This document shows positions 10,425 to 41,442 of a DNA stretch of 64,000 nucleotides, one piece after another. The DNA is from Pseudomonadota bacterium (GTDB lineage: Bacteria; Pseudomonadota; Alphaproteobacteria; Rhodobacterales; Rhodobacteraceae): the NCBI GenBank assembly GCA_020161615.1, contig JAIUPD010000010.1, positions 62,001 to 126,000 on the forward strand, written 5' to 3'. The stretch's first letter is position 1. Each line of letters begins with the position of its first letter. A program made the translations under genes and the position numbers. Below the pieces are notes generated by a model, which did no database searches, was not told where the DNA came from, and was given only the letters and a program-made list of their open reading frames with translations.

Positions 10425-12856
10425 TCGGCGGCCTCCAGCGACAGGTCGGCAAGGGGCTGGAACCGCCGCGCCGCATCGGGCTTGGCGTGTTCGGCCCAGG
10501 GATCTTTCTGGTAGATGGACTGGCTCAGATCAAAACGCGCGATCAAGGCGGCGCGGATCTCGGCATCCAGCACCTGCGACTTGATCCAGTCGAGCCCGAC
10601 CTTCCTGATCCATTTGTAGGGCCGGTCCAGGTATTTGGCATGTTCCCGGTAAAGCTGAACGAAGGCCACCGTGACGTCCATTGCCTCGGCCTCAGTCTCG
10701 ACCACGACAAGGCGCTGGGTTTCATGCAGGTCCATCCCCGCGGCACCGCCGACGCCGACCTGGTATCCGGAGTCGACGCAGACGATGCCGACATCCTTGC
10801 AGGTCGCCTCGGCGCAGTTGCGCGGACAGCCCGACACGGCCAGCTTGACCTTGTGCGGCGTCCACGATCCCCAGAGCCTTTGTTCCAGCTTGATGCCCAG
10901 GCCCGTCGAATCCTGGGTGCCGAACCGGCAGAACTCGGTCCCCACACAGGTTTTCACCGTGCGCAGGCCCTTGGAATAGGCATGGCCCGACACCAGACCG
11001 GCAGCGTTCAGATCGGCCCACATCGCCGGCAGGTCATCCTTGCGGACACCCAGCAAATCGATGCGCTGCCCGCCCGTAACCTTGACCATCGGCACGTTGT
11101 ACTTGTCGGCGGCATCGGCGATGGCGCGAAGTTCGCGGGCGTTGGTCACACCCCCCCACATGCGCGGCACCACGCTGAACGTCCCGTCCTTCTGGATATT
11201 GGCGTGCAGGCGTTCGTTGACGAATCGGCTTTGCGCATCGTCGCGATAGTCCAGCGGCCAGTCGGCCAGCAGATAGAAGTTCAGCGCCGGGCGGCAGGAA
11301 GGGCAGCCGCAGGAGGTGCGCCAGCCCAGTTCCTGCATGACGGCGGGCATCGATTTCAGTTCTTGCGCCTTGATCAGGCGCCGGACGTCTTCATGGGTCA
11401 GATCCGTGCAAGCGCACATCGGCTGGGCCGTGGGCATCTGGAAGGCATCGCCGAGGCTGAGCGCCAGCACCTGCTCAACCAAGCCGCTGCAGGTCCCGCA
11501 GGAGGCCGAGGCCTTGGTCCTGGCCCGCACCAGTTGCACGGTGGTGGCGCCCCCCTCGATGGCGGCGGCGATCTGGCCCTTGCATACGCCGTTGCATCCG
11601 CAGATCTCTGCCTCAGGCGGCAAGGCTGCAACGGCTGCAAGAGGGTCCGCGGCGACACCGCCGGCAAAGGCGGGGCCGAAGATCAGCGTCTCGCGCTCGC
11701 CCGAGATGTCGGCGCCATCCTTGATCTTCTGGAAGAACCAGTTTCCATCGGCGGTATCGCCATACATGACCGCGCCGATCAGCCGATCACCTTCGAGGAC
11801 GAGCCGCTTGTAGATGCCGCGACCGGGATCGCGGAACACGATTTCCTCACGCCCGGGCTTGTCGGCGAAATCGCCGGCGCTGAACAGGTCCACGCCCGTA
11901 ACCTTGAGCTTGGTCGCGGTCTGCACGGGGCGAAAGGCGGCATCGCCACCATTCAGGACCGAGGCCAGCACCCTTGCCTGATCGTAGAGGGGCGCCACCA
12001 GGCCGAACAACTGGCCGTCGAACTCGACGCATTCGCCGAGGGCGAAGATATCCGGGTCGGCCGTGCGCATTTGCGCATCGACGACGACACCCCGGTTCAC
12101 TTCCAGATGGGCATCGGTGGCAAGGCGGGTCTCGGGGCGGATGCCGACGGCCATGCAGACCAGATCGGCGCCGTAGACGGTGCCATCCTCCAGCAGCACG
12201 GCCTCGACCTTGTCCTCGCCAAGGATCGCCTTGGTCGCGCCCTTGCAATGCACACGGATGCCGCGCCGTTCCAGATCCTTCTGCAACAGGTAACCCGCCG
12301 CCGGATCCAGCTGGCGTTCCATCAGATGGCCCATCAGGTGGATGACGGTCACATCCGCGCCGCGCGCGGCCATCCCCGCCGCCGCTTCCAGCCCCAGCAG
12401 TCCGCCGCCGATGACGACGGCTTTCGCACCGGGGCGGCTGGCGGCGATCATCGCATTCGTGTCTTCAAGATCGCGATAGGTGACGACACCCGGCAGCGCC
12501 TTGCCTGCCACCGGGATGATGAAGGGCGCCGAGCCCGTGCCGATCACCAGCCGGTCATAGGGCGTGTCACCCTGCGCCGTGACCACGACCTTGGCCGCGC
12601 GGTCGATGCGGACCACCGGCTCGCCGAAGCGGCAGGTAATGCCCCGGTCGGCATAGAAGGCATCGTCATGGGTGATGATGTCCTCATAGGCCTTTTCGCC
12701 CGACAGGACCGGCGACAGCATCAGCCGGTTGTAATTGCCGCGCGGCTCGGCGTTGAACAGGGTCACATCCCATTGGTCCGGGGCGGCATCCAGCAGGTGT
12801 TCGATCAACCGGCCCGAGGCCATGCCGGCGCCGACGATGACGAGTCGTTTCTTCAT
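10421..12856 (-). CDS. nirB: NADH-dependent assimilatory nitrite reductase, large subunit
   Basis: An 811-residue enzyme reducing nitrite to ammonium. In order: an FAD domain opening VIVGAGMASGRLIEHLL, an NADH domain with VVIGGGLLGLEAAAG near 150, two BFD-type [2Fe-2S] segments (CGCNGVCKGQ...CGTCSG and CACTDLTHED...CGCPSC), then the sulfite/nitrite reductase halves with the siroheme-[4Fe-4S] ligands CVGTEFC and SGCPRNC. The start at 12856 is chosen because homology begins MKKRLVIVG and AGAGGAC precedes it. It lies 20 bp after the transporter gene and overlaps nirD by 4 bp. Its flavin module probably also feeds the nitrate reductase. Confidence 0.96.
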   Translation of the reverse strand: MKKRLVIVGAGMASGRLIEHLLDAAPDQWDVTLFNAEPRGNYNRLMLSPVLSGEKAYEDIITHDDAFYADRGITCRFGEPVVRIDRAAKVVVTAQGDTPYDRLVIGTGSAPFIIPVAGKALPGVVTYRDLEDTNAMIAASRPGAKAVVIGGGLLGLEAAAGMAARGADVTVIHLMGHLMERQLDPAAGYLLQKDLERRGIRVHCKGATKAILGEDKVEAVLLEDGTVYGADLVCMAVGIRPETRLATDAHLEVNRGVVVDAQMRTADPDIFALGECVEFDGQLFGLVAPLYDQARVLASVLNGGDAAFRPVQTATKLKVTGVDLFSAGDFADKPGREEIVFRDPGRGIYKRLVLEGDRLIGAVMYGDTADGNWFFQKIKDGADISGERETLIFGPAFAGGVAADPLAAVAALPPEAEICGCNGVCKGQIAAAIEGGATTVQLVRARTKASASCGTCSGLVEQVLALSLGDAFQMPTAQPMCACTDLTHEDVRRLIKAQELKSMPAVMQELGWRTSCGCPSCRPALNFYLLADWPLDYRDDAQSRFVNERLHANIQKDGTFSVVPRMWGGVTNARELRAIADAADKYNVPMVKVTGGQRIDLLGVRKDDLPAMWADLNAAGLVSGHAYSKGLRTVKTCVGTEFCRFGTQDSTGLGIKLEQRLWGSWTPHKVKLAVSGCPRNCAEATCKDVGIVCVDSGYQVGVGGAAGMDLHETQRLVVVETEAEAMDVTVAFVQLYREHAKYLDRPYKWIRKVGLDWIKSQVLDAEIRAALIARFDLSQSIYQKDPWAEHAKPDAARRFQPLADLSLEAAE

Positions 12857-26151: not shown

Positions 26152-27288
26152 ATGGACCGGATGCTCCGCACCCTCTGGTACAGCACCCGGGTCAGGAACT
26201 GGCTGTTCCAGATCGCCCTTCTGGGCGGTCTGGCGGCGCTGGTCGCCTGGATCGTCGGCAACACGCTCACCAATCTGGCGGCGCGGGGCATCCGTACCGG
26301 GTTCGAATTCCTCAGCCGCCCGGCCCGGTTCCCGATCTCGGAAAGCGTGCTGGCCTATGATTCGGCGGATACCTACGGCTGGGCCTTTGCCGTCGGGATC
26401 GGCAACACGGTCTTTGTCTCGGCGCTGACCATCCTCCTGGCCAGCCTGCTGGGGTTCGCGGTGGCGCTGGCCCGGGGCATGGGCAATCCACTGCTGTCGG
26501 CGCTGGCGGGGGCCTATGTCACGCTGATGCGCAACATGCCGCTGATCGTGCAATTGCTGTTCTGGTACGCGCTGGCCACCACGGCCTTTCCGCCGGCACG
26601 GCAGGCGTTGAATCCCCTGCCCGGCGTCTATCTCTCGCAGCGCGGCATCCATCTGCCGGCGCTGGCCTTCGAGGGGACGGCGGTTCTGGTCCTGATCGCG
26701 CTGGCGGCCGGGGTCGCGGCGGCCCTGGGTCGGCGCCGGTTTCTGGGTCGCGGCGGGCTGCTCTGGCCCCTGGGTGCGGCGCTGGCCGCCGGATTGCTCC
26801 TGATCCTGCTGCGCGGATCGGCGCCCGAGCTGGACATGCCGCTGCTGGTCGGGCTGAACTTCCGCGGCGGGCTGCATCTGACGCCGGAATTCGCCGCGCT
26901 GATGATCGGTCTGGTCCTCTATACCGCGGCCTTCATCAGCGAGATCATCCGCGGCGGGATCGAGGCGATCGCCCGAGGTCAGTGGGAAGCCGGGCGCGCC
27001 CTGGGCCTGACCCGGCGCCAGATCCTTCGCCATATCATCGTGCCGCAGGCGCTGCGCATCATCATCCCGCCCCTGACCTCGCAATATCTCTCGACCGTCA
27101 AGAACACCACGCTGGCGCTGGCCGTCGGCTATCCCGAACTTGGGCTGGTGGTGGGCACGGTCATCAACCAGAGCGGTCAGGCCATCGAGAGCATTCTCAT
27201 CATGCTGGCTGTCTTCCTGTCGATCTCGGTCTCGGTGTCGCTGTTCATGAACTGGTACAACGCCCGCGTGGCGCTGGTGGTGCGGTGA
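26152..27288 (+). CDS. aapQ: General L-amino-acid ABC transporter permease AapQ
   Basis: A 378-residue membrane protein, longer than ordinary polar-amino-acid permeases because of the extra central segment typical of AapQ/BztB (about residues 140-235). The permease core has [14 protein letters not shown] and the cytoplasmic docking loop [15 protein letters not shown] near 280. It pairs with AapM, with which it shares a TGATG junction. Confidence 0.94.
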
Positions 27289-28369
27289 TGAGCGTGACCG
27301 AACACCCCCCGCTTGCCGCCCGGACCCCGCCGGCAAAGGCCCGGACCCCGCTGGTCCGGCTGCTGTTCGGCGACGTCCTGTCGGCCCTGCTGACCCTGCT
27401 GGCCCTCGGCCTGATCCTTGCCCTGCTGCCGGCGTTGAACTGGGCGGTTCTGGATGCCGTCTGGAGCACCGAGGATCCCGATACCTGCCGTCAGGGCGGC
27501 GCCTGTTGGGCCTATGTCCAGGACAAGGCGCGGCTGATCCTGTTCGGCATCTATCCGCCCGAGCAGCATTGGCGTCCTCTGTTGGTGATCGGGCTGATCC
27601 TGGCCATGGTGCTGGCCTCGCTGTCGCCCCGGCTGTGGGGCGCGCGCCTGCTGGCGATCTGGGGCCTGTCGCTGCTGGCCATGCTGGGGCTGATGCGGGG
27701 CGGCTTCCTGGGTCTGCCGCTGGTGCCGACCTCGCAATGGGGCGGGTTGCCCGTCACCCTGCTGCTCGCGGTGCTGTCGCTGGGGATCGGCTTTCCCTTC
27801 GCGGTCGCGCTGGCGCTGGGGCGGCGCTCGGCCCTGCCGGTGCCGCGGCTGGTCTCGGTCGGCCTGATCGAGCTGGTGCGGGGGCTGCCCCTGGTCGGCG
27901 TGCTCTTCGTGGCCTCGATCCTGCTGCCGCTGCTGTTGCCCGAGGGCTGGACCATCGACAAGCTGGGCCGGACGCTGGCCGCGCTGACCGTCTTCGCCGC
28001 CGCCTATCTGGCCGAGGTGATCCGCGGCGGCCTGCAGGGCGTGGACAAGGGACAGGGCGAGGCGGCGCAGGCCCTGGGCATCCCGTTCTGGAAGACGATC
28101 TGGCACATCATCCTGCCGCAGGCGATCCAGAAGGTGATCCCGCCCCTGACCAATACCGCGATCATCATGGTCAAGAACACCTCGCTGGTAATGATCGTCG
28201 GCGTCTTCGACATGCTGGGGGCTGGCCGCGCGGCGGCCGCCGATCCCGCCTGGCCAGCGCCCTATACCGAAACCTATCTGTTCGTCGCCCTGATGTATTT
28301 CCTCATCTGCATCGCGATCTCGCTCTATTCGCGCTGGCTGGAACAGACCGTCAAGAACCGGAGTCACTC

Positions 28370-28373
<4 letters not shown>
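27288..28373 (+). CDS. aapM: General L-amino-acid ABC transporter permease AapM
   Basis: A 361-residue inner-membrane permease. It carries the AapM-specific periplasmic insertion with a cysteine pair ([11 protein letters not shown] near 63-75) and the docking loop [16 protein letters not shown] near 255. The start at 27288 is set by the TGATG junction with aapQ; a longer in-frame reading extends far into aapQ and is not real. The final residues overlap the aapP start by 4 bp. Confidence 0.94.
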
Positions 28374-29101
<728 letters not shown>

Positions 29102-29327: not shown

Positions 29328-30404
29328 TCACTCCTTCCTCAGGGCTCTGACCAGACCGAAATGCAGGTCGGTGACCGACAGGCCAAGCGCGTCGGCGAGG
29401 TCCTGCATCGTGATCTCCGTCCCGCCGTCCAGACCGACGAGCGTGACGGGATCGCCGTCCCTGGCCTCGGCGATGTCGCTGAGATCGACCATTGATGCCA
29501 AGAGCGTTCGCGCGACAACCGGCGCCGCTTGCCCCCGGATCAGCACCTGTCCGAACGGCGGTCGAGCCGGGAGCCCGTCGAAATGGCCGATGGGAATGGT
29601 TCCGACCCGCGATGGCGCGGGGCCTGCCGCGGCCCCATAGCCGAGCGCGCCCGCCTGCCGAACGGCGCGGCTGTCGAGGAGCACGGACCGGATCGAACGG
29701 ACCACGGGCCTGAAAGCGGCGCTGCCCGGCGGCTGCATCATGCCATAGAGCGCCCGGCCGGGATCGACCTGTTCATGGCGCAGATCGGGCCGTGCCAGCA
29801 GCAGGGGGCTGGCCGCGAACATGCTTGGGATCGCCCGCCTGCAGGCCGCGCGGATCGAGGTCACTTGCCGGTCAAAGGCAGCCAGCGCGGCCTCGGTCGC
29901 ACCGCGCGCCGAGGATTGACTGAAATGGGTATAGACCCCGGCGATACCGCGGAGGTGCCCCGTGTCGAGCGCAGACAGGACGGGCGCCAGGTCGGGCTCG
30001 GTAAAGCCATAGCGGTGCAGGCCGCAATCGAGCTTCAGCCAGAAGCGCGCCTCAGGGGCGTCCATCAGGATCGCCTCCAGACTGGCCCGATTATGCACAG
30101 ACACCAGGATCCCTGCCGCGGCCAGGGCTGGCAGATCGGCCGACAAAGCCGAGGGGAACATCAGGATCTGGGCGTCAGGCAAGGCGGCGCGCAACGCCAG
30201 CGCCTCGTCGGGCGTTCCGACGCAGAAGTGGCCGAGCCCGCAGGCCGCTCCCATCCGCGCGGCGCGGACCGTGCCCAGCCCGTAGCCGTCGCCCTTGCAG
30301 ACCTGCCAGATCACCGGATCGCCGGGCAGCATCCCGCGCAGCAGCGCGAGGTTGTGGCGCAGCGCGTCGGGGTCTAGCTCGACACGATTGGGGCGCGCGA
30401 TCAT
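29328..30404 (-). CDS. Alanine racemase-like PLP enzyme, divergent
   Basis: A 358-residue fold-type III PLP protein. The PLP lysine is Lys37 in QVCKGDGYGLG (standard KADAYGHG), and Tyr256 in GYG matches the catalytic tyrosine. Two other usual active-site tyrosines are absent: the GYADG motif reads GHFDG (His274) and the C-terminal SYE motif reads SVTDL. The substrate entrance therefore differs from housekeeping Alr. The start at 30404 overlaps hyuB by 4 bp; a longer upstream reading is only overlap with hyuB. It is the last gene of the LacI-controlled cluster and may racemise an amino acid released from the imported compound. Confidence 0.82.
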   Translation of the reverse strand: MIARPNRVELDPDALRHNLALLRGMLPGDPVIWQVCKGDGYGLGTVRAARMGAACGLGHFCVGTPDEALALRAALPDAQILMFPSALSADLPALAAAGILVSVHNRASLEAILMDAPEARFWLKLDCGLHRYGFTEPDLAPVLSALDTGHLRGIAGVYTHFSQSSARGATEAALAAFDRQVTSIRAACRRAIPSMFAASPLLLARPDLRHEQVDPGRALYGMMQPPGSAAFRPVVRSIRSVLLDSRAVRQAGALGYGAAAGPAPSRVGTIPIGHFDGLPARPPFGQVLIRGQAAPVVARTLLASMVDLSDIAEARDGDPVTLVGLDGGTEITMQDLADALGLSVTDLHFGLVRALRKE

Positions 30405-32245
30405 GGGCGGTTGCCGATCCCCGGACCGGCTCCGATCGTGGTCAGGAAATGGGCCTGCTGCCTGACCGCGAGTTCTCCCGCTTCCAGCCGCGATAACTCG
30501 CGACGCAGGGCGTCGGTCGCAACCGGATCCGGCGCCCCATCGGCAGCCAGCACAACGCCATAGACCGTGCGGGCGTGCTCGGCATCCAGAAGGCCATCGC
30601 GGCAATCCTCGGCGACGGCCTCGGGTAGACGGGTAAGGGGGTCGCCATAACCGGCGCCGCCCGCGGCGATATGCATCACGCGGTCGCCCCGTTGCAGCTG
30701 CCGCGGTCCCATGTTCATGGTCGGCAGCAGGCTGCGCTGGCCATCGGCATGTTGCAGCGTCGTCACCGAGGGCGAACCCGGCAATCCGCCATCCATCGCC
30801 AGCGGCAGATTGCGCCGTCGATCCGAACGCAGGGTCATGGAGGCAGTCTCGGCCTCGATCACATAGGTGCGCTGCATCGCCAGCCCGCCGCGCCGGCGCC
30901 CGGCCCCCCCGGAATTCGGCGCGAAGCCATAGCTTTCCACGCGCAGCGGCAGGCGGGCCTCCATCAACTCGATCGGTTGGTTCGAGAGGTTGGCGCCGGG
31001 GCTGGAGATGCCCTCGACCCCGTCATGGTCGCGCCGGCCGCCCCAACTGCCGAGAATACCGTCCGTGACCAGCCATTGCACCTGACGCGGGCCCTGCCGC
31101 CCCGAGAAGGTGATTGCCGTCGGTCCGCCCTCGCCGCCGGCGGGCACCAGCCCCGGCATCAACGGGCCGAAGGCGGCGAAACAGGTGTCGAGCATCCGAT
31201 AGGCGATCACACCGCGCGCAGCGCAGGCCGCTCCGTCGCGCGGGTTGACGATCGAGCCCTCGGGGGCACGCAGATGGATCGGCCGCATGTAGCCCTCGCA
31301 ATTCGGAATCCCCGGTCCCAGGGCATTGCGCAAGGCGGCATAGGCCAGCGACCAGGTGGTCGTGATCGGACAGTTGATCGCGCCGGCAACCTGACCCGAG
31401 GTCCCTTCCCAGTCGAAGATGATCTCGCTGCCCTTGACCGTGATCGCGACATGAAACTCGATCCGCGCGCCGGATTCGCCAAGCCCGTCGATGTAGTCGA
31501 CCGCGCGCATCACCCCATCCGGGATCTCGGCAATGCGCTGGCGCACCAGCCGCTCGGCGTAATCGTGCAACTCGTCGATCAGCATCGGGAAGGCCGCGCC
31601 GTGCTTGGCCGCCAGCGCCGCGAAGGACCGCGCGACGGTATCGCAGGCCGAGATCTGCGCGCGCAGATCGCCCATCACCTCGCCCGGCATCCGGGAATTG
31701 GCGCGCAGCATGTCGAACACCGCGGCATTGGGCCGCCCGGCCTCGAACAGCCGCACCAGCGGGATGCGCAGACCCTCCTGATGGATTTCCTCGGCGTTCA
31801 GCGCCATCGAGCCGGGGGCGAGGCCGCCGATATCGGTATGGTGCACCAGCGAGGATGTGAAACCGACCCGCCGACCGGCGTCGAACACCGGGCGGATGAA
31901 GAAGATGTCCGGCAGATGCATCCCCCCGGCGGCATAGGGATCGTTGACGAGGAAGCCGTCGCCCTCGGCAATCGTCTCGCCGAAGGTTTCCAGCAGCCGC
32001 GTCATCACGCGCGGGAAGGACCCCAGGTGAATCGGGTTCGTCAGCCCCTGCGCCACCAGCCGCCCCTCGGCATCGAAGATCGCGGTGGAGTAATCCATCG
32101 AGTCGCGCACGATCGGGCTGTAGGCCGAGCGCAGGATGATCAGCGCCATCTCGTCGGCCAGCGATTCCAGCGCGTTCTTCAGGATTTCCAGGGTCACGGG
32201 GTCCGAACGCGTGGCGGTGATCTCGGGTCGGGGGGCGAGCGACAT
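30401..32245 (-). CDS. hyuB: Hydantoinase B / oxoprolinase family protein
   Basis: A 614-residue protein of the HyuB family (opening DPVTLEILKNALESLADEMA, then RSAYSPIVRDSMDYSTAIFD and VNDPYAAGGMHLPD). These partner HyuA in ATP-dependent opening of cyclic amides such as 5-oxoproline or N-methylhydantoin; acetone carboxylase subunits are related. Start 32245 is chosen because AAGG lies 9 bp upstream and it directly follows the hyuA stop; an alternative start at 32254 is possible. The end overlaps the racemase-like gene by 4 bp. Confidence 0.92.
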   Translation of the reverse strand: MSLAPRPEITATRSDPVTLEILKNALESLADEMALIILRSAYSPIVRDSMDYSTAIFDAEGRLVAQGLTNPIHLGSFPRVMTRLLETFGETIAEGDGFLVNDPYAAGGMHLPDIFFIRPVFDAGRRVGFTSSLVHHTDIGGLAPGSMALNAEEIHQEGLRIPLVRLFEAGRPNAAVFDMLRANSRMPGEVMGDLRAQISACDTVARSFAALAAKHGAAFPMLIDELHDYAERLVRQRIAEIPDGVMRAVDYIDGLGESGARIEFHVAITVKGSEIIFDWEGTSGQVAGAINCPITTTWSLAYAALRNALGPGIPNCEGYMRPIHLRAPEGSIVNPRDGAACAARGVIAYRMLDTCFAAFGPLMPGLVPAGGEGGPTAITFSGRQGPRQVQWLVTDGILGSWGGRRDHDGVEGISSPGANLSNQPIELMEARLPLRVESYGFAPNSGGAGRRRGGLAMQRTYVIEAETASMTLRSDRRRNLPLAMDGGLPGSPSVTTLQHADGQRSLLPTMNMGPRQLQRGDRVMHIAAGGAGYGDPLTRLPEAVAEDCRDGLLDAEHARTVYGVVLAADGAPDPVATDALRRELSRLEAGELAVRQQAHFLTTIGAGPGIGNRP

Positions 32246-32246
32246 C

Positions 32247-34337
32247 TCAGGCATCCTTGGTGATGACGATATTGGTAAAGGCGTCGAGTTCGGCGCCCCA
32301 GCCGGGCGGCACGACGGTGGTACTGTCGTATTCCTCGACGATGAGCGGCCCGACACGGCGGCCGCCGGCCAGATCGGCGCGGGTCAGGATCGGCGTGGCG
32401 ACGCGGGCATCGAGCGCCGCGAAATGGACCTTGCGATGATGCGTGCCGCGCGCGGGCGTGCCCAGCGGCGGGGCGCGGAAGGCCCGGTCGCCGCTGTCGG
32501 CGCGCAGGCCGATCAGTCGCAGGTTCACCAGTTCGACCGCATCCTCTTCCGAGGCATGGCCATAGGTGCGGGCGTGTTCGTCGTGGAAAGCCGTACCGAG
32601 GGCATCCAGGATCCTCTCAGGCACCTCGGCGGTGACAGGAACCGTCAGTTCGTAGGCCTGACCGACATAGCGCAGGTCGGCCTCGATCTGGAACAGCATG
32701 GCTTCGGGCGCGCAGCCCTCGTCAGCCAGCGCTCGCGCGACACCCGCGCGCAGGGCGTCGAGGCTGTGCTGAAGCGCCTCGGGCGTCAGCGCGGCCAAGG
32801 GGCGATAGACGGTGCGCGTCAGCTCGCGCCTGGTCTGCGAATGCAGGAGGCCCAGGGCCGAAAACACGCCCGGGCTGGGCGGCACCACCACGCGGCCCAT
32901 GTCCAGCAGGTCCGCCACCTGTACCGCGACCAGCGGGCCGTTTCCCCCAAAGGCAAAGAGCGCAAAGTCGCGCGGGTCGCGGCCGCGATAGGTCGAGACC
33001 GCCTTGACCGCCCGCATCATCGTCGCCGCAGCAATGGCATAGACGCCGCTCGCAGCCTGATCGAGCGTCAGCCCGGCCGGACCCGCCACACGCGCCTGCA
33101 AGGCGTCGCGCGCCTTCGCGGCGTTCAGCGCCACGGCACCGCCTGCCAGATGCTCAGGGTTCAGATACCCCAGCACCACCGCGGCGTCGGTGAAGGTCGG
33201 ATCTTCGCCGCCGAGGTCATAGCAGGCGGGCCCCGGAGAGGATCCGGCACTGTCCGGGCCCACCCGCAGCGCCCCGCCCGCGTCGAGCCGCACGATCGAG
33301 CCCCCGCCCGCGCCGATCTCGGACACGTCGATGAAAGGCATCTTGACCGAATGCCCGCCACCCTTGACCAGTTTGGAGCTGAGGTTGATCCCCGCCCCCA
33401 CCTCGTATTCGGTGGTGCGCGTGGGCTCGCCGCCTTCGATCATCGCCGCCTTGGCCGTGGTGCCGCCCATGTCGAAGGTGATGATCTCGCCATAACCCGC
33501 CGCGCGGCCGAGATTCGCCGCCGCGATCACCCCTGCCGCCGGCCCGCTTTCGATGATCGCCGCCGGAATCTCGGCCGCAGCACGCGCGCTCATCGCCCCG
33601 CCCGAGGATTGGACGATGGACAGGGGCGCCCCCAACCCCGCACCGGCCAGACGGCGTTCCAGCGAAAGCAGGTAGCGTTTCACCACCGGTCCCAGATAGG
33701 CGTTAACCACCACGGTGCTGGTGCGTTCGTATTCGCGGATCTCGGGCAGGACTTCGGTCGAGCGAGTGAGGTAGATGTCCGGCCCCAGCGCCTCGGCCAA
33801 AAGGGCGAAGGCGCGGGCTTCGTGATCGGGGTTGGCATAGGAATGCAGGAAACTGATCGCCACCGCCTCGATCCCGGCGGCGCGGATCTCGGCGGCGATT
33901 GTCGTCAGCTCCGCCTCGGCCAGCGGCACCAGGACCGAGCCATCGGCAAGCATACGCTCGCTGACCTCATAGCGGTGACGTCGACGGGCCAGCGGCACCG
34001 GCTTGACATAGTTCAGGTCATAAAGTTGCGGCACGCGCAGCCGCCCGATCTCGACCACATCGCGAAAGCCGCGCGTCGTCACCAGCGCCGTTTTCGCGCC
34101 CTTGCCTTCCAGCACGGTGTTGGTGGCGACGGTCGTCGCATGGATGATCTCGGACACCTGCGCCGGATCGGCACCCACGCGGGTCAGCAATTCCTGCGCA
34201 CCGTTCAGGATGCCCAGCGAATAATCCGCCGGCGTGGACGAGACCTTGCATTGATGAATCGTTTCATCGTCACCGCGCAGAACAACATCGGTGAAGGTGC
34301 CGCCGATGTCGGCACCCAGTCGGTAGGTGGTGGTCAC
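32247..34337 (-). CDS. hyuA: Hydantoinase A / oxoprolinase family protein
   Basis: A 696-residue ATPase-fold protein. The N-terminal GADIGGTFTDVVL is the sugar-kinase/Hsp70-like phosphate loop of the family. The Hydantoinase_A core follows with ATTVATNTVLEGKGAKTALVT and FDMGGTTAKAAMIEGG near 285. With HyuB it should open a lactam or hydantoin ring at the cost of ATP. It follows the transporter ATPase gene by 16 bp and precedes hyuB by about one base. Its first ~30 codons contain a near-perfect copy of the cluster's LacI operator (34252-34269). Confidence 0.93.
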   Translation of the reverse strand: MTTTYRLGADIGGTFTDVVLRGDDETIHQCKVSSTPADYSLGILNGAQELLTRVGADPAQVSEIIHATTVATNTVLEGKGAKTALVTTRGFRDVVEIGRLRVPQLYDLNYVKPVPLARRRHRYEVSERMLADGSVLVPLAEAELTTIAAEIRAAGIEAVAISFLHSYANPDHEARAFALLAEALGPDIYLTRSTEVLPEIREYERTSTVVVNAYLGPVVKRYLLSLERRLAGAGLGAPLSIVQSSGGAMSARAAAEIPAAIIESGPAAGVIAAANLGRAAGYGEIITFDMGGTTAKAAMIEGGEPTRTTEYEVGAGINLSSKLVKGGGHSVKMPFIDVSEIGAGGGSIVRLDAGGALRVGPDSAGSSPGPACYDLGGEDPTFTDAAVVLGYLNPEHLAGGAVALNAAKARDALQARVAGPAGLTLDQAASGVYAIAAATMMRAVKAVSTYRGRDPRDFALFAFGGNGPLVAVQVADLLDMGRVVVPPSPGVFSALGLLHSQTRRELTRTVYRPLAALTPEALQHSLDALRAGVARALADEGCAPEAMLFQIEADLRYVGQAYELTVPVTAEVPERILDALGTAFHDEHARTYGHASEEDAVELVNLRLIGLRADSGDRAFRAPPLGTPARGTHHRKVHFAALDARVATPILTRADLAGGRRVGPLIVEEYDSTTVVPPGWGAELDAFTNIVITKDA
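34252..34269. promoter_or_regulatory. Intragenic LacI-type operator inside hyuA
   Basis: TGATGAATCGTTTCATCG matches the 18-bp operator at 40061-40078 at 17 of 18 bases, differing only in the last one. It lies about 70-85 bp inside hyuA, encoding part of the segment DDETIHQ. It could act as a transcription roadblock or a loop partner for the LacI protein bound 5.8 kb upstream. Confidence 0.65.
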
Positions 34338-34353
34338 GTCTCTCTCCTGTGGT

Positions 34354-35964
34354 TCAGGCGGGGCTGGCGAAACGGGCGCGGCCGGCCAGCCCCTTGGGCA
34401 GGGAAGCCAGCAGCGCGCGGGTATAGTCGGTGGCCGGATGGGTCAGGACCTGCCGGGCCTCGCCGGTCTCGACAACGGCGCCGGCGCGCATCACGAGAAC
34501 CCGGTCGCAGATCGTGCCGATCAGCCCGAGGTCGTGGCTGATGACGATCAGCGTCATGCCGAGATCGCGCTGCAGCGCTTGCAGGAGGTCGATGATCTCC
34601 TTCTGCACCGAAACGTCGAGCGCCGAGGTCGGCTCGTCGGCGATCAGGATGTCGGGGCTGGTCGCCAGCGCCCGGGCGATGCCGACGCGCTGACGCTGAC
34701 CGCCCGACAATTGGTGAGGATAGCGATCCAGCAACGCGGGATCGAGGCGCACAAGCTCCATCAGCGCCCCGGGGCTGCGGCGTTCGGCGCGAGGCAGCGC
34801 CTGCATTGCCTCGGACAGAGCCCGCCGGATGGTCTTGCGCGGGTTGAGCGAGGCCTGACTGCCCTGAAACACCAGTTGGATCCGGCGCGACAGCGCGCGG
34901 CGCTCGTCACGGTCGCGGGGCTTCAGCGGGACGCCCTGCAACAGCACGCTGCCGCTGGTTGGCTGGTCGAGCCCGATCAGCAGCCGCGCCAGTGTCGACT
35001 TGCCCGAGCCGCTCTCACCGACGATGCCCAGCACCTGCCCGGCATGGACCCGCAGATCCGACGGGCTGAGCGCCTGCACCTGCCGCCGATCCCAGAGCCT
35101 TGCCACGGCCGAGCGCGCACGCGGATAGGCGCGACTGACCGCGCGGGTCTCGAGCACCACGGGCGTGTCGGGTATCCGGCCCGCGCCCGGCAGGCCGATG
35201 CGGGGGATCGCCGCCAAGAGCTTCCTCGTATACTCGGCCCGCGGCGCACCCATGACCTGCGCCGCCTCGCCCATCTCGACAATCCGGCCCTCGTGCATCA
35301 CCGCGATGCGGTCGGCGAACTCCCCGACCAGATCAAGGTTGTGCGAGATGAACAGCAGCCCGATGCCCCGCGCCCGGCACAGATCGACCAGCAAACGCGT
35401 GATCTGCTCCTGCACGGTCACATCCAGCGCCGTGGTCGGCTCGTCCGCGATAAGCAAGGCGGGATCGCAGGCGATCGCCAGCGCGATCATCACCCGCTGC
35501 CGCATCCCCCCGGACAATTCATGCGGATAGAGGGTGAGGCAACGCTCGGCCTCGCGGATGCCGACCTGCGTCAGCAGTTCCACCGCCCGGGCGCGGCGCG
35601 CGGCGCGGGGCAGGTCGGTATGCGCGGCCAGCACATCGCCGAGCTGCCGCCCGACCGGAAACACCGGGTTGAGCGAGGTCATCGGGTCCTGGAAGACCAT
35701 CGCCACCCGCCGCCCGCGCATCTGTCGCAGCGCCGAGGCGGACAGCGAGAGCACGTCCTCGCCCTGCAGCAGGACCCGCCCCGCGGTCCGCGCCGCGCCG
35801 TCCAGCAGCCGCATCACCGACAGGGCGGTCACGCTCTTGCCCGAGCCGCTTTCGCCGATGATCGCCAGCTTCTCGCCCCGCGCCAGATGCAGCGAAACCC
35901 CGCGCACCGCGTGAAAGGTGCCGAAGCGGACATCCAGGTCCTCGATCTGCAACAGCGCATCCAT
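34354..35964 (-). CDS. Fused dipeptide-type ABC transporter ATPase (DppD-DppF)
   Basis: A 536-residue protein with two complete ATPase domains. The first has Walker [14 protein letters not shown] near residue 37, [14 protein letters not shown] and [14 protein letters not shown]. The second, from about 265, has [29 protein letters not shown] and [14 protein letters not shown]. In most oligopeptide importers these are separate DppD and DppF subunits. It overlaps the DppC-like permease by one base (TGATG) and powers the importer encoded just upstream. Confidence 0.94.
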
Positions 35965-36842
35965 CAGGCGGTTTCCTTCGGCAGGCGGGTCCGGCGGCGC
36001 GGGTCGAAAAGGTCACGCAGGCCGTCGCCCAAGAGGTTGAAGCCGATCACCGACAGGAAGATCGCCAGCCCCGGGAACAGCGACAGCCAGTATTCGCCGC
36101 TGAAGACCGTCTGCTTGCTATCCGCCAGCATCGAGCCCCAGCTGGGCATCGGCGGCTGCACGCCCAGCCCGACGAAGGACAATGAGGCCTCGATGATGAT
36201 GCCGATGCCCACCAGCACGCTGGCCTGCACCAGAAGTGGCGACAGGATATTGGGCAGCACATCCCCGAACAGGATCGCCGCGCTGCCGGTGCCCTGCAGG
36301 CGGCGGGCGTCGACATATTCCTGCTTCAGTTCGGCCAGCGCCAGGCCATAGGTGATGCGCGCGATGCCGGGGAAGAACAGGATGCCGACCAGCAGCACCA
36401 GCTTCGCCTCGTTCGACAGGCTCACCGGGCCGATCTGCGTGGCGCCGGTGCCGACGATGCCGACCACGGCGATGGCCCAGATCAGCACCGGGATCGCGGC
36501 GAAGATGTCGACAAGGCGCATGGCCAGCTCCTCGAACAGGCTACCGGCGGCCTCGGCGGCGGCAAGGCCCAGCGAAACGCCCAGCATCATGCCGATGACC
36601 ACGATCCCCAGGCCGATCGCCAGGGACGAGCGCGCGCCCCAGAGAGTGCGCGCCAGCACGTCGCGCCCCAACGCATCGGTGCCGAACCAATGGTCGGCCG
36701 AGGGCGGCAGATAGGTATCGAGGATGCTGGTAGCGGTCGGCGAGGGCAGCGGCAGAACCGGAGCCAGCAGCGCGATCAGCCCCATGGCCAGGACCAGCGC
36801 CAGGCCCAGAAGGGCGACGGGAGAGCGGGCGAGCGCGAACAT
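35964..36842 (-). CDS. Dipeptide-type ABC transporter permease (DppC-like)
   Basis: A 292-residue membrane protein of the DppC/OppC type: an N-terminal membrane anchor (ALLGLALVLAMGLIALLAPVL), then the DLR-type sequence HWFGTDALGRDVLARTLWGAR that marks this subunit, and the docking loop EYVDARRLQGTGSAAILF near 175. It pairs with the DppB-like subunit, 9 bp upstream. The substrate may be a peptide but members of this family also carry nickel, opines and other small molecules. Confidence 0.93.
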   Translation of the reverse strand: MFALARSPVALLGLALVLAMGLIALLAPVLPLPSPTATSILDTYLPPSADHWFGTDALGRDVLARTLWGARSSLAIGLGIVVIGMMLGVSLGLAAAEAAGSLFEELAMRLVDIFAAIPVLIWAIAVVGIVGTGATQIGPVSLSNEAKLVLLVGILFFPGIARITYGLALAELKQEYVDARRLQGTGSAAILFGDVLPNILSPLLVQASVLVGIGIIIEASLSFVGLGVQPPMPSWGSMLADSKQTVFSGEYWLSLFPGLAIFLSVIGFNLLGDGLRDLFDPRRRTRLPKETA

Positions 36843-36851
36843 GATCCCTCC

Positions 36852-37784
36852 TCAGGTCGCGAGGCGCGGATTCAGCGCGCGCTGGATCAGGTCGGCAGCG
36901 GTCGAGGCCAGCACGAACACCAGGGTGATCAGCAGCACGATGGCCTGTATCATCGGATAATCGCGCTGGAAGATCGCGGTCAGCAGCGCATTGGCAAGTC
37001 CGGGCAGATTGAACACCATCTCGACAATGACGGCCCAGCCGAACATGTAGCCATAGGACATGGCAGCCATCGAGACGAAGGGCGGCAGAGCGTCGCGCAG
37101 CGTATAGGCATAGCGGGTGCGCGCCGACAGCCCCAGCGCCACGCCGGTACGGGTGTAATCCTGCCCCAGCACGTCGATCAGGCTGGCGCGCATCAGCCGA
37201 GACATGGCGCCGATGTAATAGATCGCAATCGCCAGCGCCGGCAGCAGGAGCGAGGACAGATGCGGCCAGACCCCGCGCGCCCAGGGGATCACGCCCACCG
37301 GTGGCAGCCAGCCCAGTTGCACGCCCACCAGCCACATCAGCAGGAGGCCCAGCCAGAACCCCGGCACCGATAGCGCCGCCATGGCGAGGATGCGCACGGC
37401 ATGATCGGGCCAGCGGTTCTCGCCATAGGCCGAGGCCGATCCCAGCGCGATCGACCCGACCACCGCCAGCACGAAGGCCAACGTCACCAGTTCCAGCGTC
37501 AGCGGCAGAGTCTCGGCCAGCCGCTGGTTCACCGATTGGCCGGTGACATACGAGCGGGCAAAGCCCTCTGCCGGCAGCGCGCGCAGCCAGGCCAGGTATT
37601 GCACGGCGATGGGCCGGTCCAGGCCGTGCTCGGCCTCGAAGGCGGCGATGCTTTCGGCAGGCGCGTCGGCGCCCAGCACCAGCCGCGCGGGCGAAACGCC
37701 GCCCAGCCGGGTCAGCGCGAAGATCATCGCGCTGACCACGAAAAGCACCATCAGGGCGCTGGCGAGGCGGGTCAGAACCTGCAT
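36852..37784 (-). CDS. Dipeptide-type ABC transporter permease (DppB-like)
   Basis: A 310-residue permease with about six membrane segments. The N-terminal helix (LASALMVLFVVSAMIFALTRL) is followed by the DppB signature LGLDRPIAVQYLAWL-like region (here HGLDRPIAVQYLAWLRAL) and the docking loop LGQDYTRTGVALGLSARTR near 205. The start is 1 bp past the end of the binding-protein gene, so translation is coupled. Confidence 0.93.
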   Translation of the reverse strand: MQVLTRLASALMVLFVVSAMIFALTRLGGVSPARLVLGADAPAESIAAFEAEHGLDRPIAVQYLAWLRALPAEGFARSYVTGQSVNQRLAETLPLTLELVTLAFVLAVVGSIALGSASAYGENRWPDHAVRILAMAALSVPGFWLGLLLMWLVGVQLGWLPPVGVIPWARGVWPHLSSLLLPALAIAIYYIGAMSRLMRASLIDVLGQDYTRTGVALGLSARTRYAYTLRDALPPFVSMAAMSYGYMFGWAVIVEMVFNLPGLANALLTAIFQRDYPMIQAIVLLITLVFVLASTAADLIQRALNPRLAT

Positions 37785-37785
37785 C

Positions 37786-39330
37786 TCAGGCCGCGAGCTT
37801 CACGTCGCGAAGCCGCAGGGTGATCCCGGTGTTCACCGGCATCTCGGTCACGTCGGCGCCCCAGAGATTGAAGGCCTTGGGCGTGCCGATGAAGGCGGCC
37901 GGTGCCTCGTCGGCCAGGATTGCCTGCGCACGGGCCAGGATCGGGGCAAGGTCCTCGTCGCGGGCCGCGAAACTCTCTTCGATGGCCGCGGTCAGCGCCT
38001 CCGAGCTGAAGCCGGTGCCGACATTGAGCGACTGGCCCGGCATGAACAGGGCGTTCATGATGAAGGTCGGATCGGTCGTCCCCACCACGGCCCAGAGAAC
38101 AGACTGGTGGTTGCCGCCGAAGATGTCCCCGAACATCTGCCCGGTCTCCAGCGGCTTCAACGTGACCGTGATCCCCACCTCGGCCAGGGCCGCCTGGATA
38201 TAGAGCGCGGTGTCGCGCACATCGAGCAGATAGGCGTCGGTCGGATAGGTCAGTTCGAAGGCGGCGTTCCCGGCATAGGCACTGTCGGCGAGCGCGGCGC
38301 GGGCTGCCTCCAGATCCATCGACAGCCGCGCATCGGCCTCGGCGGAATGCAGCGCCGAAGCCGTCGGCACCAGGACCGAGGTCTCCTCGAGCAATCCGCC
38401 ATAGATCCGCTCGGCAATCGCGGCGCGGTCGAAGGCGCGGGCCACGGCGACGCGGAAATTCCGGTCGTCGAACGGGGCCTTGGCGCAGTTATGCATGAGC
38501 ATCATCGCCGCCCCAAGCGCCGGCTTCGACGCACCCGAAAAGCCGCCGCCCTCGGCCGTCAGGCGCAGGAAATCGCGCGCCGCGGGTCCGCCGACCACAT
38601 CTGCCGTGCCGCTCATCAGCGCGGCGAGACGGGCGTTCGCCTCGCCCGCGATCTCGAAGCGGACGACATCCCAATCGGGCGCCTCACCCCAGTAATCGGG
38701 ATTGCGCACCAGTTCGACATAAGCGCCGGTCTGTGCCTCGGAGAAGATCGCAGGCCCGGTGCCCAGACCCGCGGGCGCGCTCTGAAACGCGTCTGCCGCC
38801 TCCTCGCGCGAGCCCTGGGGGAAGATGCCCATGTATTTGGTCATCGACGAGAGAAGCGGGCGGTAGGGCCGCGAAAGGTGGAAGCGAACCTCGTAGTCGG
38901 AAAGAACCTCGACGCGCTCGATCGCCGTCCAATAGGACCGGCGCAGCGCCTCGTTGGCCGGATCGAGCATGTAATCATAGGAATATTTCACATCCGCCGC
39001 GGTGAAGGGCGCACCGTTGTGGAACCGCACCCCCTCACGCAGACGGAAGGTATAGGTCAGTCGATCCTCGGAGATCTCGGGCAGGTCGACAGCCAGCTGC
39101 GGCACCAGATTGCCGTCCACATCCACCTCCAGAAGATTCTGGTAGATCAGCTGGCTGACCGCCATTGCGTCATGGTTGCTCTGGTTCAGCGGATCCAGTG
39201 TCGAGGGGTTCGACGGGATCGTCGCGACCAGCACCTTGCGCCCCTGCGCGTCGACGCGGGTGGCGAAGCCCCCGGCGAGGCTGGCGGTCAGGCTGGCGGC
39301 AGTAGCGAGGAAATGTCGGCGGGACAGCAT
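37786..39330 (-). CDS. Dipeptide-type ABC transporter substrate-binding protein, Tat-exported
   Basis: A 514-residue SBP family 5 protein. The start at 39330 follows AAAGGAAA and gives a twin-arginine signal (SRRHFLATAASLTASLAGG), implying folded export. The mature part contains STLDPLNQSNHDAMAVSQLIY and the family hallmark LAVDLPEISEDRLTYTFRLR followed by GVRFHNGAPFTAADVKYSYD. It is the second gene of the LacI-controlled operon, 25 bp after the isochorismatase-like gene. Confidence 0.93.
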   Translation of the reverse strand: MLSRRHFLATAASLTASLAGGFATRVDAQGRKVLVATIPSNPSTLDPLNQSNHDAMAVSQLIYQNLLEVDVDGNLVPQLAVDLPEISEDRLTYTFRLREGVRFHNGAPFTAADVKYSYDYMLDPANEALRRSYWTAIERVEVLSDYEVRFHLSRPYRPLLSSMTKYMGIFPQGSREEAADAFQSAPAGLGTGPAIFSEAQTGAYVELVRNPDYWGEAPDWDVVRFEIAGEANARLAALMSGTADVVGGPAARDFLRLTAEGGGFSGASKPALGAAMMLMHNCAKAPFDDRNFRVAVARAFDRAAIAERIYGGLLEETSVLVPTASALHSAEADARLSMDLEAARAALADSAYAGNAAFELTYPTDAYLLDVRDTALYIQAALAEVGITVTLKPLETGQMFGDIFGGNHQSVLWAVVGTTDPTFIMNALFMPGQSLNVGTGFSSEALTAAIEESFAARDEDLAPILARAQAILADEAPAAFIGTPKAFNLWGADVTEMPVNTGITLRLRDVKLAA

Positions 39331-39355
39331 GGCAGTTTCCTTTCGGACGAAGGTG

Positions 39356-40048
39356 TCAGAGCTGGGCAAGCAGAGCGTCGGTAGTGGTAATCTCGGCCCG
39401 CGTGGCAAAAGGCACGCGCAGCAGGGCTTCCTGCGCCGCGGCGTCCGGCTCGAAACAGCCGTCGGCGATCAACAGGATGCGGTAGTCGAGGTCGCTGGCC
39501 TCAGCCAGGGTCGAGACCACCACACCCGAGGTGGTGATCCCGGCCATCATCAGCGTGTCGATGCCCCGCGCCCGCAGCGAGAGGTCCAGATCGGTGCCCT
39601 TGAAGGCGCTGACGCGATGGGCGGTGATCTCGGTATCGCCGCTCCCTCGGAGGACATCCGGGATCGCGTCATTGGTAAACAGACCGAAACTGCGGATCAT
39701 CTGGCCATTCTGGTTGTTCGCGCTGATCTCGCGGTAATCCGCGCTGAAACCGATCCGCACCAGGTAGACCGGCACCCCGGCCCCCCGCGCAGTCCCCGCG
39801 AGCCGAGCCATGCGCTGGACATAGGCGTCGATACCGGCCTCGGCGAAGAGGGCGAGGATGTCGGTCTGGTAGTGCAGCAGGACAAGCGCGCTACGGCGGG
39901 GGTCGATCGGCATGGAACTCTCCTCGGTGGGCTGGCTGCGCGCGCTTTGGGGCAGGCTCTGAAAGAAGCCCAACGACAGGGCGCCGGCAATCATCGCACG
40001 CCGTGTCGGCCCTGTCCCCTCGCCTATCCTGTCGCCCGCGTCTCTCAT
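39356..40048 (-). CDS. Isochorismatase-like hydrolase lacking the usual cysteine, possible Tat signal
   Basis: A 230-residue reading with the isochorismatase/cysteine-hydrolase fold (SALVLLHYQTDIL with Asp63; SAFKGTDLDLSLRARG with Lys150). The nucleophile position in AGITTSGVVVSTL is Val176, where N-carbamoylsarcosine amidase and nicotinamidase have cysteine. From start 40048 (AGGTGA upstream) the N-terminus is TRRAMIAGALSLGFF, a plausible twin-arginine signal. A second start at 39913 (MPIDPRRS, preceded by GAGGAG) would give a 185-residue cytoplasmic protein; I cannot decide between them. It is the first gene after the tandem LacI operators. Confidence 0.8.
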   Translation of the reverse strand: MRDAGDRIGEGTGPTRRAMIAGALSLGFFQSLPQSARSQPTEESSMPIDPRRSALVLLHYQTDILALFAEAGIDAYVQRMARLAGTARGAGVPVYLVRIGFSADYREISANNQNGQMIRSFGLFTNDAIPDVLRGSGDTEITAHRVSAFKGTDLDLSLRARGIDTLMMAGITTSGVVVSTLAEASDLDYRILLIADGCFEPDAAAQEALLRVPFATRAEITTTDALLAQL

Positions 40049-40060
40049 ATTGGAATCACC

Positions 40061-40100
40061 TGATGAATCGTTTCATCAACACTAATGAAACGATTCATCA
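40061..40100. promoter_or_regulatory. Tandem LacI-type operators upstream of the hydantoinase/importer operon
   Basis: Two 18-bp inverted repeats: TGATGAATCGTTTCATCA at 40061-40078 (perfect 7-bp arms) and TAATGAAACGATTCATCA at 40083-40100 (one arm mismatch). Their centres are 22 bp apart, about two helical turns. They fill the gap between the lacI-family gene's stop and the first structural gene, so they control leftward transcription of the whole cluster. Confidence 0.85.
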
Positions 40101-40116
40101 GTCGTCTAGTGTTTTC

Positions 40117-41103
40117 TTACACGGATTTGCGATCAATGAACCCGGGCGCCAGCGGGACCGCCGAGGCCGGGGCGGAACGGGCTTTGGGATCAAGGCGTTG
40201 CAGCAAAAGCTCGGCGGCTTCGGACGCGACGCGCCGGCTCGGCAGCACCACCGCCGAAACGGCCGGCCGGCATATGGACAGGAACGGATCGTCGCCGATG
40301 GAGATCACCGAAAGATCCCCCGGGCAGGCAAGACCGACTTCCTCCACCGCACCCAACACCGCGGGAATGTCATGGACATTGGCCACGACCGCATCGACGG
40401 GATCCTTGTCCTGCAGCGCGGCGCGGAAGGCGGCGGGGTCGAAGCGGCCGGTATGCACCACCTCAAGCCTCGCCCCGGATCCGAGGCCTTCCCGCATTCC
40501 GGCCACTTGCTCGCGCCCGGTCCAGGTGTGTTCGTGTCCCGCAATCAGCAGCACCCGGTCCCGCCCGCGCCGCCGCAACGCCTCGGCCGCCATCCGCGCG
40601 CCGGCACGATGATCGGTGCGCACCGAGGGGAAACGCCCGCCGGTGTCACGCTCCCACAGCACCACGGGAATCCCCATCGCTTCGAGCCGGTCGAGCAGCG
40701 CGGCATCCTCGTCCGAGCTGATGGTCAGCACGAGTCCGTCCACGCTGCGCTCCGCCATGAAGCTCAGCAGACGATCCTCGGCCGCGGCGTCGTTCTGGAA
40801 ATCCCCGACGATGGGCGCGAAGCCATGGCGGCGGGCGATTTCGGAGGCCTGGGCCACCAGCGTGGCGGCGACAGGCTGGCGGAGGTCGGTGACGATGATG
40901 CCGATCGCATGGGTGCGCCGCGTGCGCATGGTCCGGGCCGAGACATTGGGGCGATAGCCCAGCTCGCGGATCACCGCCTCGACATGGCGGCGCAGCTCGG
41001 GCGCGACGGTGGCATTGCTGTTGACGATGCGCGAGACGGTGCCGAGCGAGACATTGGCGCGCCGCGCAACGTCCTTCATCGTCGGTGTTCGATCAGACCC
41101 CAT
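40117..41103 (-). CDS. LacI-family transcriptional repressor
   Basis: A 328-residue repressor. The DNA-binding head reads PTMKDVARRANVSLGTVSRI (residues 7-26), followed by the hinge helix region PNVSARTMRTRRTHAIGI. The periplasmic-binding-protein-like effector domain runs from about residue 65 to the end. The ATG at 41103 is preferred; an in-frame TTG lies three codons upstream. It lies directly upstream of the operon it should repress, with its own stop 17 bp from the tandem operators. Confidence 0.94.
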   Translation of the reverse strand: MGSDRTPTMKDVARRANVSLGTVSRIVNSNATVAPELRRHVEAVIRELGYRPNVSARTMRTRRTHAIGIIVTDLRQPVAATLVAQASEIARRHGFAPIVGDFQNDAAAEDRLLSFMAERSVDGLVLTISSDEDAALLDRLEAMGIPVVLWERDTGGRFPSVRTDHRAGARMAAEALRRRGRDRVLLIAGHEHTWTGREQVAGMREGLGSGARLEVVHTGRFDPAAFRAALQDKDPVDAVVANVHDIPAVLGAVEEVGLACPGDLSVISIGDDPFLSICRPAVSAVVLPSRRVASEAAELLLQRLDPKARSAPASAVPLAPGFIDRKSV

Positions 41104-41442
41104 CGTGAACAAGCTCGTCTTTGTCGTTTCCGGATGATAACCGCCGACTTGCGCCGGATCGAGAGGGCTCGTGCGTCGGCCTGTGACTGAACGCCCTTAA
41201 GGGCTCAGAACTCCGCCGATTTCCAGGCCTAATTCACCCCCCGACGAAGAGCCACCTGCGGACGGCGTCGTCAAGTCGCCGGTCAGGTCTGGTTTGGCCC
41301 GGTCGGTCCTTGGCATCGCTGCACTACGGGCAGCGTCGGGCCACGAATATCAGGAAATTTCGAGCCTTGGCCATCATGAACGTTCACGACAAGACCGGGC
41401 CGCGGCCAGCATCAGGCCCCCCGGCGCCCCCGCCCGATCCGA
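41104..41442. other. Non-coding gap between the LacI gene and the aapJ remnant
   Basis: No convincing gene is seen; short open frames here are proline/arginine-rich chance readings. It must hold the lacI promoter, for which no clear hexamer pair is visible. The one obvious element is the 12-bp palindrome GCCCTTAAGGGC at 41193-41204. Confidence 0.5.

Follow-up and report, generated by a model that had tools for sequence, protein, structure and literature searches.

A 64,000-nucleotide stretch of a Rhodobacteraceae genome, here called the window, carries a hydantoinase-type operon that appears to be controlled by its own, probably dimeric repressor of the LacI/PurR type. We propose, with a probability of about 0.6, that two tandem operators (O1 and O2) ahead of this predicted catabolic operon block the initiation of transcription and that a third (O3), inside the hyuA coding sequence, acts as a roadblock to elongation. 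Intragenic LacI-family operators, as in lacZ and purB, and tandem sites 22 bp apart are already known; what is new is the system itself, the placing of an operator at the module border of one operon, and its recurrence in Burkholderiaceae. For such hydantoinase clusters, searches of the open-licence PMC literature turned up no report of a LacI-type regulator, and the analysis suggests for this cluster a regulator, its operators, and a likely substrate class (hydantoin- or lactam-type amides). If O3 works, a single repressor would adjust the importer and the enzymes of one operon to separate levels.

Three operators with a shared asymmetric centre

The operators are 18-bp sites on the minus strand: O1 at 40061..40078 (TGATGAATCGTTTCATCA), O2 at 40083..40100 (TAATGAAACGATTCATCA), and O3 at 34252..34269 (TGATGAATCGTTTCATCG). 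O2 repeats O1 in inverted orientation with one difference, and O3 is identical to O1 at 17 of 18 positions. Their centres, at 40069.5, 40091.5, and 34260.5, lie 22 bp (O1–O2), 5809 bp (O1–O3), and 5831 bp (O2–O3) apart. All three are even palindromes with a central CG, symmetric at 16/18 positions in O1 and 14/18 in each of O2 and O3, and all share one asymmetric centre (AAACGA). PMC4052901 describes LacI-family operators as even palindromes with a central CG and gives 22 bp as a preferred inter-site distance in the family. Direct reading of the sequence confirms what a preliminary description had noted, namely two tandem 18-bp operators with centres 22 bp apart and a third copy inside hyuA with a 17/18 match to O1, and the sequence features support its assignment of these sites to a LacI-type repressor.

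O3 spans hyuA codons 23-29 (gene nucleotides 69-86). The conserved DIGGTFTD motif stands upstream of O3 in HyuA, matching the homologue alignment, so O3 is truly intragenic; a misassigned hyuA start that would leave O3 outside the gene is ruled out by the same alignment. The similarity between O1 and O3 is confined to the motif, with none past its edges, which also rules out O3 as a copy of a longer DNA segment.

The lacI gene is found (E ≤ 1e-60) in 3 of the 18 genomes of the genus, counting the genome under study, with 97% identity in genome G001, probably Pararhodobacter aggregans D1-19 (locus L005), and 84% in genome G005, probably Pararhodobacter sp. CCB-MM2 (locus L006). These three genomes are close relatives of one another. 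O1, O2, and O3 are each kept in both loci, at spacings across the three genomes of 22 bp, within one intergenic region, and 5803-5809 bp, and the hyuA site of CCB-MM2 has no mismatch to the consensus. Gene order is the same as far as the loci extend, into the racemase gene. Loss of O3 from relatives that keep O1 and O2, the outcome by which the preliminary description proposed to judge its own claim, was not seen: all three sites are present in 3/3 Pararhodobacter. All nine operators keep the asymmetric centre GAAACGATTC, and besides the three sites no match to the 14-bp core at ≤1 mismatch was found in any of the three genomes.

An operon of importer and hydantoinase-type genes

The cluster runs along the minus strand in the order lacI, hydrolase, solute-binding protein, two permeases, double ATPase, hyuA, hyuB, and racemase-family gene. 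The lacI-family repressor gene (40117..41112, minus strand; 331 residues) ends 16 bp from O2. From lacI (41112-40117) to the hydrolase's first possible ATG (40048) is 68 bp, and O1 ends 12 bp ahead of that ATG. The first gene past the operators encodes a hydrolase of the isochorismatase superfamily (39356..40048, minus strand; PF00857). It is followed by the family-5 solute-binding protein of a dipeptide/nickel-type ABC importer (37786..39408, minus strand; PF00496), two ABC permeases (36852..37784 and 35964..36842, both minus strand and PF00528), and an ABC double ATPase of the fused DppD/DppF type (34354..35964, minus strand; two stretches of PF00005). After a gap of 16 bp comes hyuA (32247..34337, minus strand; 696 residues, PF05378 and PF01968), the subunit A gene of the hydantoinase/oxoprolinase family that carries O3. 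The hydantoinase B family gene hyuB (PF02538) lies in an open reading frame at 30401..32356 on the minus strand; since this frame overlaps the end of hyuA and the domain begins at residue 52, the true start should lie downstream of 32356, where two in-frame stops in the leading part of the CCB-MM2 gene (91% identical by tblastn, with an ungapped check) also place it. The last gene belongs to the alanine racemase family (29328..30605, minus strand; PF01168 and PF00842).

The Hydant_A_N, Hydantoinase_A, and Hydantoinase_B domains are all present in HyuA and HyuB, which by their sequences are classed as an enzyme of the ATP-dependent hydantoinase/oxoprolinase/lactamase type; the caprolactamase equivalog models score below their cut-offs (508 vs 1000 and 250 vs 1000). 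Together with the isochorismatase-fold amidohydrolase and the racemase, HyuA/HyuB suggest that a hydantoin- or lactam-like amide is broken down to an amino acid, a substrate class that we take, partly from general background, to follow from the gene families.

The N-terminal segment of the hydrolase reads R-R-A-[MF]-I and then a hydrophobic stretch in 3/3 Pararhodobacter (R-R-A-M-I in the genome under study), and R-R-A-[MF]-I also occurs in a Paraburkholderia homolog, in frame upstream of the annotated start (window 40048-39914, minus strand; Paraburkholderia locus L059 3698-3890; L005 11065; L006 11050). Such a segment resembles a twin-arginine export signal, and the hydrolase may therefore act in the periplasm. 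Heading towards the racemase end of the cluster, at 26982-29101 on the plus strand, are permease and ATPase reading frames of a polar-amino-acid-type ABC importer, named by eye; this region holds no operator match at ≤3 mismatches.

A tentative promoter and a predicted roadblock in hyuA

Conserved non-coding bases allowed us to place, by eye, a weak, tentative promoter at 40079..40108 on the minus strand. Its −35 element is TAGACG at 40103-40108 (TGGACG in both relatives), its −10 element is TAGTGT at 40079-40084, between the operators, and the 18-nt spacer overlies O2. The non-coding bases immediately upstream of O2 and between O1 and O2 are nearly unchanged in the three genomes; a consensus scan of the operator region found no promoter.

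From these sequence features we infer where the promoter lies, how the repressor would bind, what would induce the operon, and how a roadblock would make repression unequal. Lying 22 bp apart on about the same helix face, O1 and O2 would cover a promoter located in the gap that separates lacI from the first gene of the operon. Two dimers would be expected to cooperate at the tandem sites, following the family rule for 22-bp spacing, and without inducer their occupancy would block initiation. A hydantoin- or lactam-like amide, or the product of one, is the probable inducer. Situated some 77 bp into hyuA, where the importer genes give way to the hydantoinase genes, O3 most likely acts as a roadblock to elongation: polymerase that escapes the block at O1 and O2, or initiates at partial occupancy of these sites, would still yield importer mRNA, and repressor bound at O3 would stop it before hyuA-hyuB-racemase until the repressor leaves. 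The expected outcome is importer first, enzymes later. If repression at O1 and O2 were already complete, the roadblock would matter little.

According to PMC4132739, roadblocking by LacI reaches 73-96% when the operator is ideal and LacI is at its highest level; PurR at purB, cited in PMC10310618, is a further precedent. O3 likewise lies within a coding region, downstream of the putative promoter and in the presumed path of transcription. Because the gap between the ATPase gene and hyuA is 16 bp and a scan of 34200-36000, limited to the sigma-70 consensus, shows no promoter-like site, polymerase probably enters hyuA from the genes upstream.

Operators at the hydantoinase genes of other lineages

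A tblastn search with the repressor against 72,556 plasmid records returned four at E ≤ 1e-40, and all four carry importer and hydantoinase genes near lacI. Two are from Burkholderiaceae. In Paraburkholderia 22B1P (lacI 39% and hyuA 62% identical), exact operators occupy four gaps: lacI to hydrolase gene, chemotaxis gene to solute-binding gene, ATPase gene to porin gene, and porin gene to hyuA. The last of these gaps measures 169 bp, and its operator is 115 bp ahead of the annotated start of hyuA. The Caballeronia NK8 record (lacI 40%, hyuA 61%) bears no annotation, and its genes were placed by tblastn and open reading frames; two exact operators separate lacI from the solute-binding gene, a third precedes a porin gene whose product is 85% identical to the Paraburkholderia porin, and the fourth lies between porin and hyuA. 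Exact matches are concentrated in the clusters, with 4/4 on the 1.68-Mb Caballeronia replicon and 4/5 on the Paraburkholderia plasmid falling inside. Weaker matches directly upstream of lacI in the two clusters (1 and 2 mismatches) may mediate autoregulation.

Compared with the genes of the window, the Burkholderiaceae cluster has in addition a porin gene served by an operator of its own; the Paraburkholderia one also includes a chemotaxis receptor gene (L059 4486-6009 and 11451-12620). The repressor may thus have sensing, entry through the outer membrane, import, and breakdown under its control.

The other two records are Bosea plasmids (lacI 44-45%, hyuA 59% identical). In both clusters the solute-binding gene is preceded by two tandem sites at a distance of 21 bp; their core differs slightly (GAAACGTTTC), and each site is near-palindromic in itself. 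Neither cluster has an operator at hyuA, where the closest approach to the motif, with 3 mismatches, falls on the homologous codons G-E-T-V-H.

Two of three lineages thus have an operator where the hydantoinase genes begin, in one of them inside hyuA and in the other upstream of it. Since the two Burkholderiaceae plasmids carry exact sites between porin and hyuA, the boundary operator recurs, and these plasmids are the best new, independent evidence for separate importer and hydantoinase operators. Their hyuA operator, being upstream of the gene, fits promoter repression as well as it fits a roadblock. It is on this ground that one might take O3 for a true operator whose target is a promoter of hyuA's own, located within the 3′ end of the ABC ATPase gene, in keeping with the Paraburkholderia site 115 bp ahead of hyuA and the Caballeronia site in the gap directly before it. 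We regard this, the main rival reading, as unlikely, given the outcome of the sigma-70 scan described above and the location of O3, which at 69-86 nt into the gene is past the usual place for blocking initiation.

To the preferred reading, initiation block at O1/O2 with a roadblock at O3, a broader proposal can be attached, which we hold tentatively and are inclined to doubt: the border operator arose separately in two lineages, giving one repressor a two-step switch-on, importer first and enzymes at full induction, with no second regulator or promoter. In the version of this proposal that specifies the route, equally tentative, the site came to lie upstream of hyuA in Burkholderiaceae, and in Pararhodobacter synonymous codons made the E-T-[IV]-H stretch an operator. 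If O3 works, it may exemplify coding sequence turned into an operator, for which Bosea HyuA offers a non-operator comparison.

Chance matches and codon choice at O3

Within the window, matches to the operator at ≤3 mismatches number 7 when counted strand-wise, vs 0.03 expected from shuffles, and only one, at 12838 with 3 mismatches, lies away from the three sites. The degenerate 14-bp core occurs three times, vs 0.002 expected under a first-order Markov model. Across the whole genome (4,866,760 bases), the degenerate 18-mer is matched with 0-1 mismatch by O1, O2, and O3 only and with exactly 2 mismatches nowhere; 8 further places match with 3 mismatches. The exact 16-bp form GATGAAACGATTCATC is present in 2 of the 394 genomes of the family sample, the genome under study and one congener. 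The earlier judgement that a 17/18 match by chance is very unlikely therefore holds, in that O3 is not readily explained by chance.

A motif inside a gene may still be spelled by the protein, and O3 could be a coding coincidence in which the residues D-E-T-I-H-Q happen to produce it. The similar G-E-T-V-H at the same place in Bosea HyuA indicates that the motif partly follows from the protein, and conservation says little against coincidence. The core codons GAT GAA ACG ATT CAT are identical in 3/3 Pararhodobacter, as expected if bases and not only residues were conserved at the site; the excess over expectation is only modest, with a chance of about 0.025 that the five codons stay unchanged in these close genomes. 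This estimate uses per-codon retention rates from six genes. It leaves out hyuB, whose codons most likely fell out of register at the two stops in CCB-MM2, lacI, which was not codon-aligned, and hyuA codons 23-29. Equally or more surprising five-codon windows number 13 of 2574 (overlapping, at 7 places, O3 among them), and hyuA has 24 runs of at least five identical codons, the run at O3 counted. Codon conservation was accordingly set aside as proof of O3, being too weak. Codon choice speaks against coincidence: given D-E-T-I-H and local codon usage, just these codons would be drawn with a probability of about 0.002, a figure computed after the site was seen. The lack of any other genomic match at ≤2 mismatches, the absence of the exact 16-mer from the 392 other family-sample genomes, and the retention by O3 of the asymmetric centre of O1 and O2 point the same way, and leave coincidence improbable.

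A PurR-like repressor

The repressor has the helix-turn-helix and effector domains of the LacI family (PF00356, 62.7 bits; PF13377, 70.5 bits; both above cutoff). None of the 18 matching NCBIfam models for named equivalogs reaches its cut-off, the best scores being 141 bits vs 382 for RbsR and 127 vs 501 for PurR. The closest solved structures are 3bil, a probable LacI-family regulator, and PurR. The protein is of PurR-like length and aligns with PurR 2-330, ending there. In E. coli LacI, the tetramer segment comprises about residues 340-360; the alignment with that protein stops at LacI residue 308, and no LacI-type C-terminal tetramer segment was seen. The recognition helices are similar across lineages (SLGTVSR, SVGSVSR, and GLGTVSR). 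We read the repressor as a dedicated local regulator, presumably a PurR-like dimer.

This architecture bears on the suggestion, made in the preliminary description, that O3 might loop with the main sites. As a helper site, O3 would be joined to O1 and O2 over 5.8 kb by a tetrameric repressor. LacI-type tetramers do form loops in E. coli, and the distance from O3 to O1/O2 is constant within 6 bp in the three genomes; constant gene lengths account for that constancy, however, and without a counterpart of the LacI tetramer tail, looping over this distance is unsupported and in our judgement very improbable. We give next to no weight to the idea that O1 and O2 act as RNA, their 40-bp inverted repeat forming a strong hairpin in a lacI-operon transcript (−31.3 kcal/mol vs a shuffle mean of −15.2, z −5.5), since any inverted operator pair would fold likewise, the Burkholderiaceae operators are single or 133 bp apart, the Bosea sites are each near-palindromic in themselves, and O3 has no adjacent partner.

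Relation to known LacI-family systems

The proposed roadblock most resembles that of PurR at purB: He and Zalkin are said to have described in 1992 a PurR operator inside E. coli purB that acts in this way. Both systems would combine a LacI-family repressor of tail-less length with an intragenic operator downstream of a promoter. Unlike purB, one target in a PurR regulon of many genes, the present cluster appears to have a repressor dedicated to it, and O3 divides a single operon into an importer part and an enzyme part, alongside a tandem pair at the promoter. Like the E. coli lac operon, the system has operator sites at the promoter and a further one within one of the operon's structural genes (lacZ in lac). 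The lac O2 site, however, is about 400 bp away and works through tetramer looping; in the present system 5.8 kb separate the sites, and the repressor shows no tetramer segment.

RafR and ScrR are, according to PMC4052901, local LacI-family regulators with double sites 21-22 bp apart. The present system is like theirs in its 22-bp tandem pair, even palindrome, and central CG. It differs in its third, intragenic site and in its targets, which are hydantoinase-type genes rather than the sugar genes of RafR and ScrR. Sites in coding regions, with purB and lacZ as examples, make up under 1% of predicted LacI-family sites in the same survey.

Distribution of the repressor and its operators

Related lacI genes (E ≤ 1e-60) occur in 3/394 family genomes and 1/388 phylum genomes, the latter being the genome under study. 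In genome G250, with a 64% identical LacI, neither the motif nor hyuA was found in the stretches taken, and genome G602 was rejected as a further lineage because its LacI is a different one (27%). In six genomes whose hyuA is 47-53% identical, the 18-19 kb taken around that gene hold no related lacI. Matches to hyuA were present in 186 plasmid records, of which the first five listed were examined. Bosea NBC_00550 (54% identical hyuA) has a LysR gene listed, no lacI, and no core motif at ≤2 mismatches. The 31 loci of more distant hyuA (37-53% identity) gave no match to the degenerate core at ≤1 mismatch and three with 2 mismatches, one of them lying 113 bp before a hyuA paralogue of CCB-MM2 (locus L045) and having no central CG. 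The loop at the position of O3 is variable in sequence among these loci.

The central bases of the sites are symmetric in Burkholderiaceae (GAATCGATTC) and in Bosea, unlike the asymmetric Pararhodobacter centre, which looks like half of the Burkholderiaceae form joined to half of the Bosea form.
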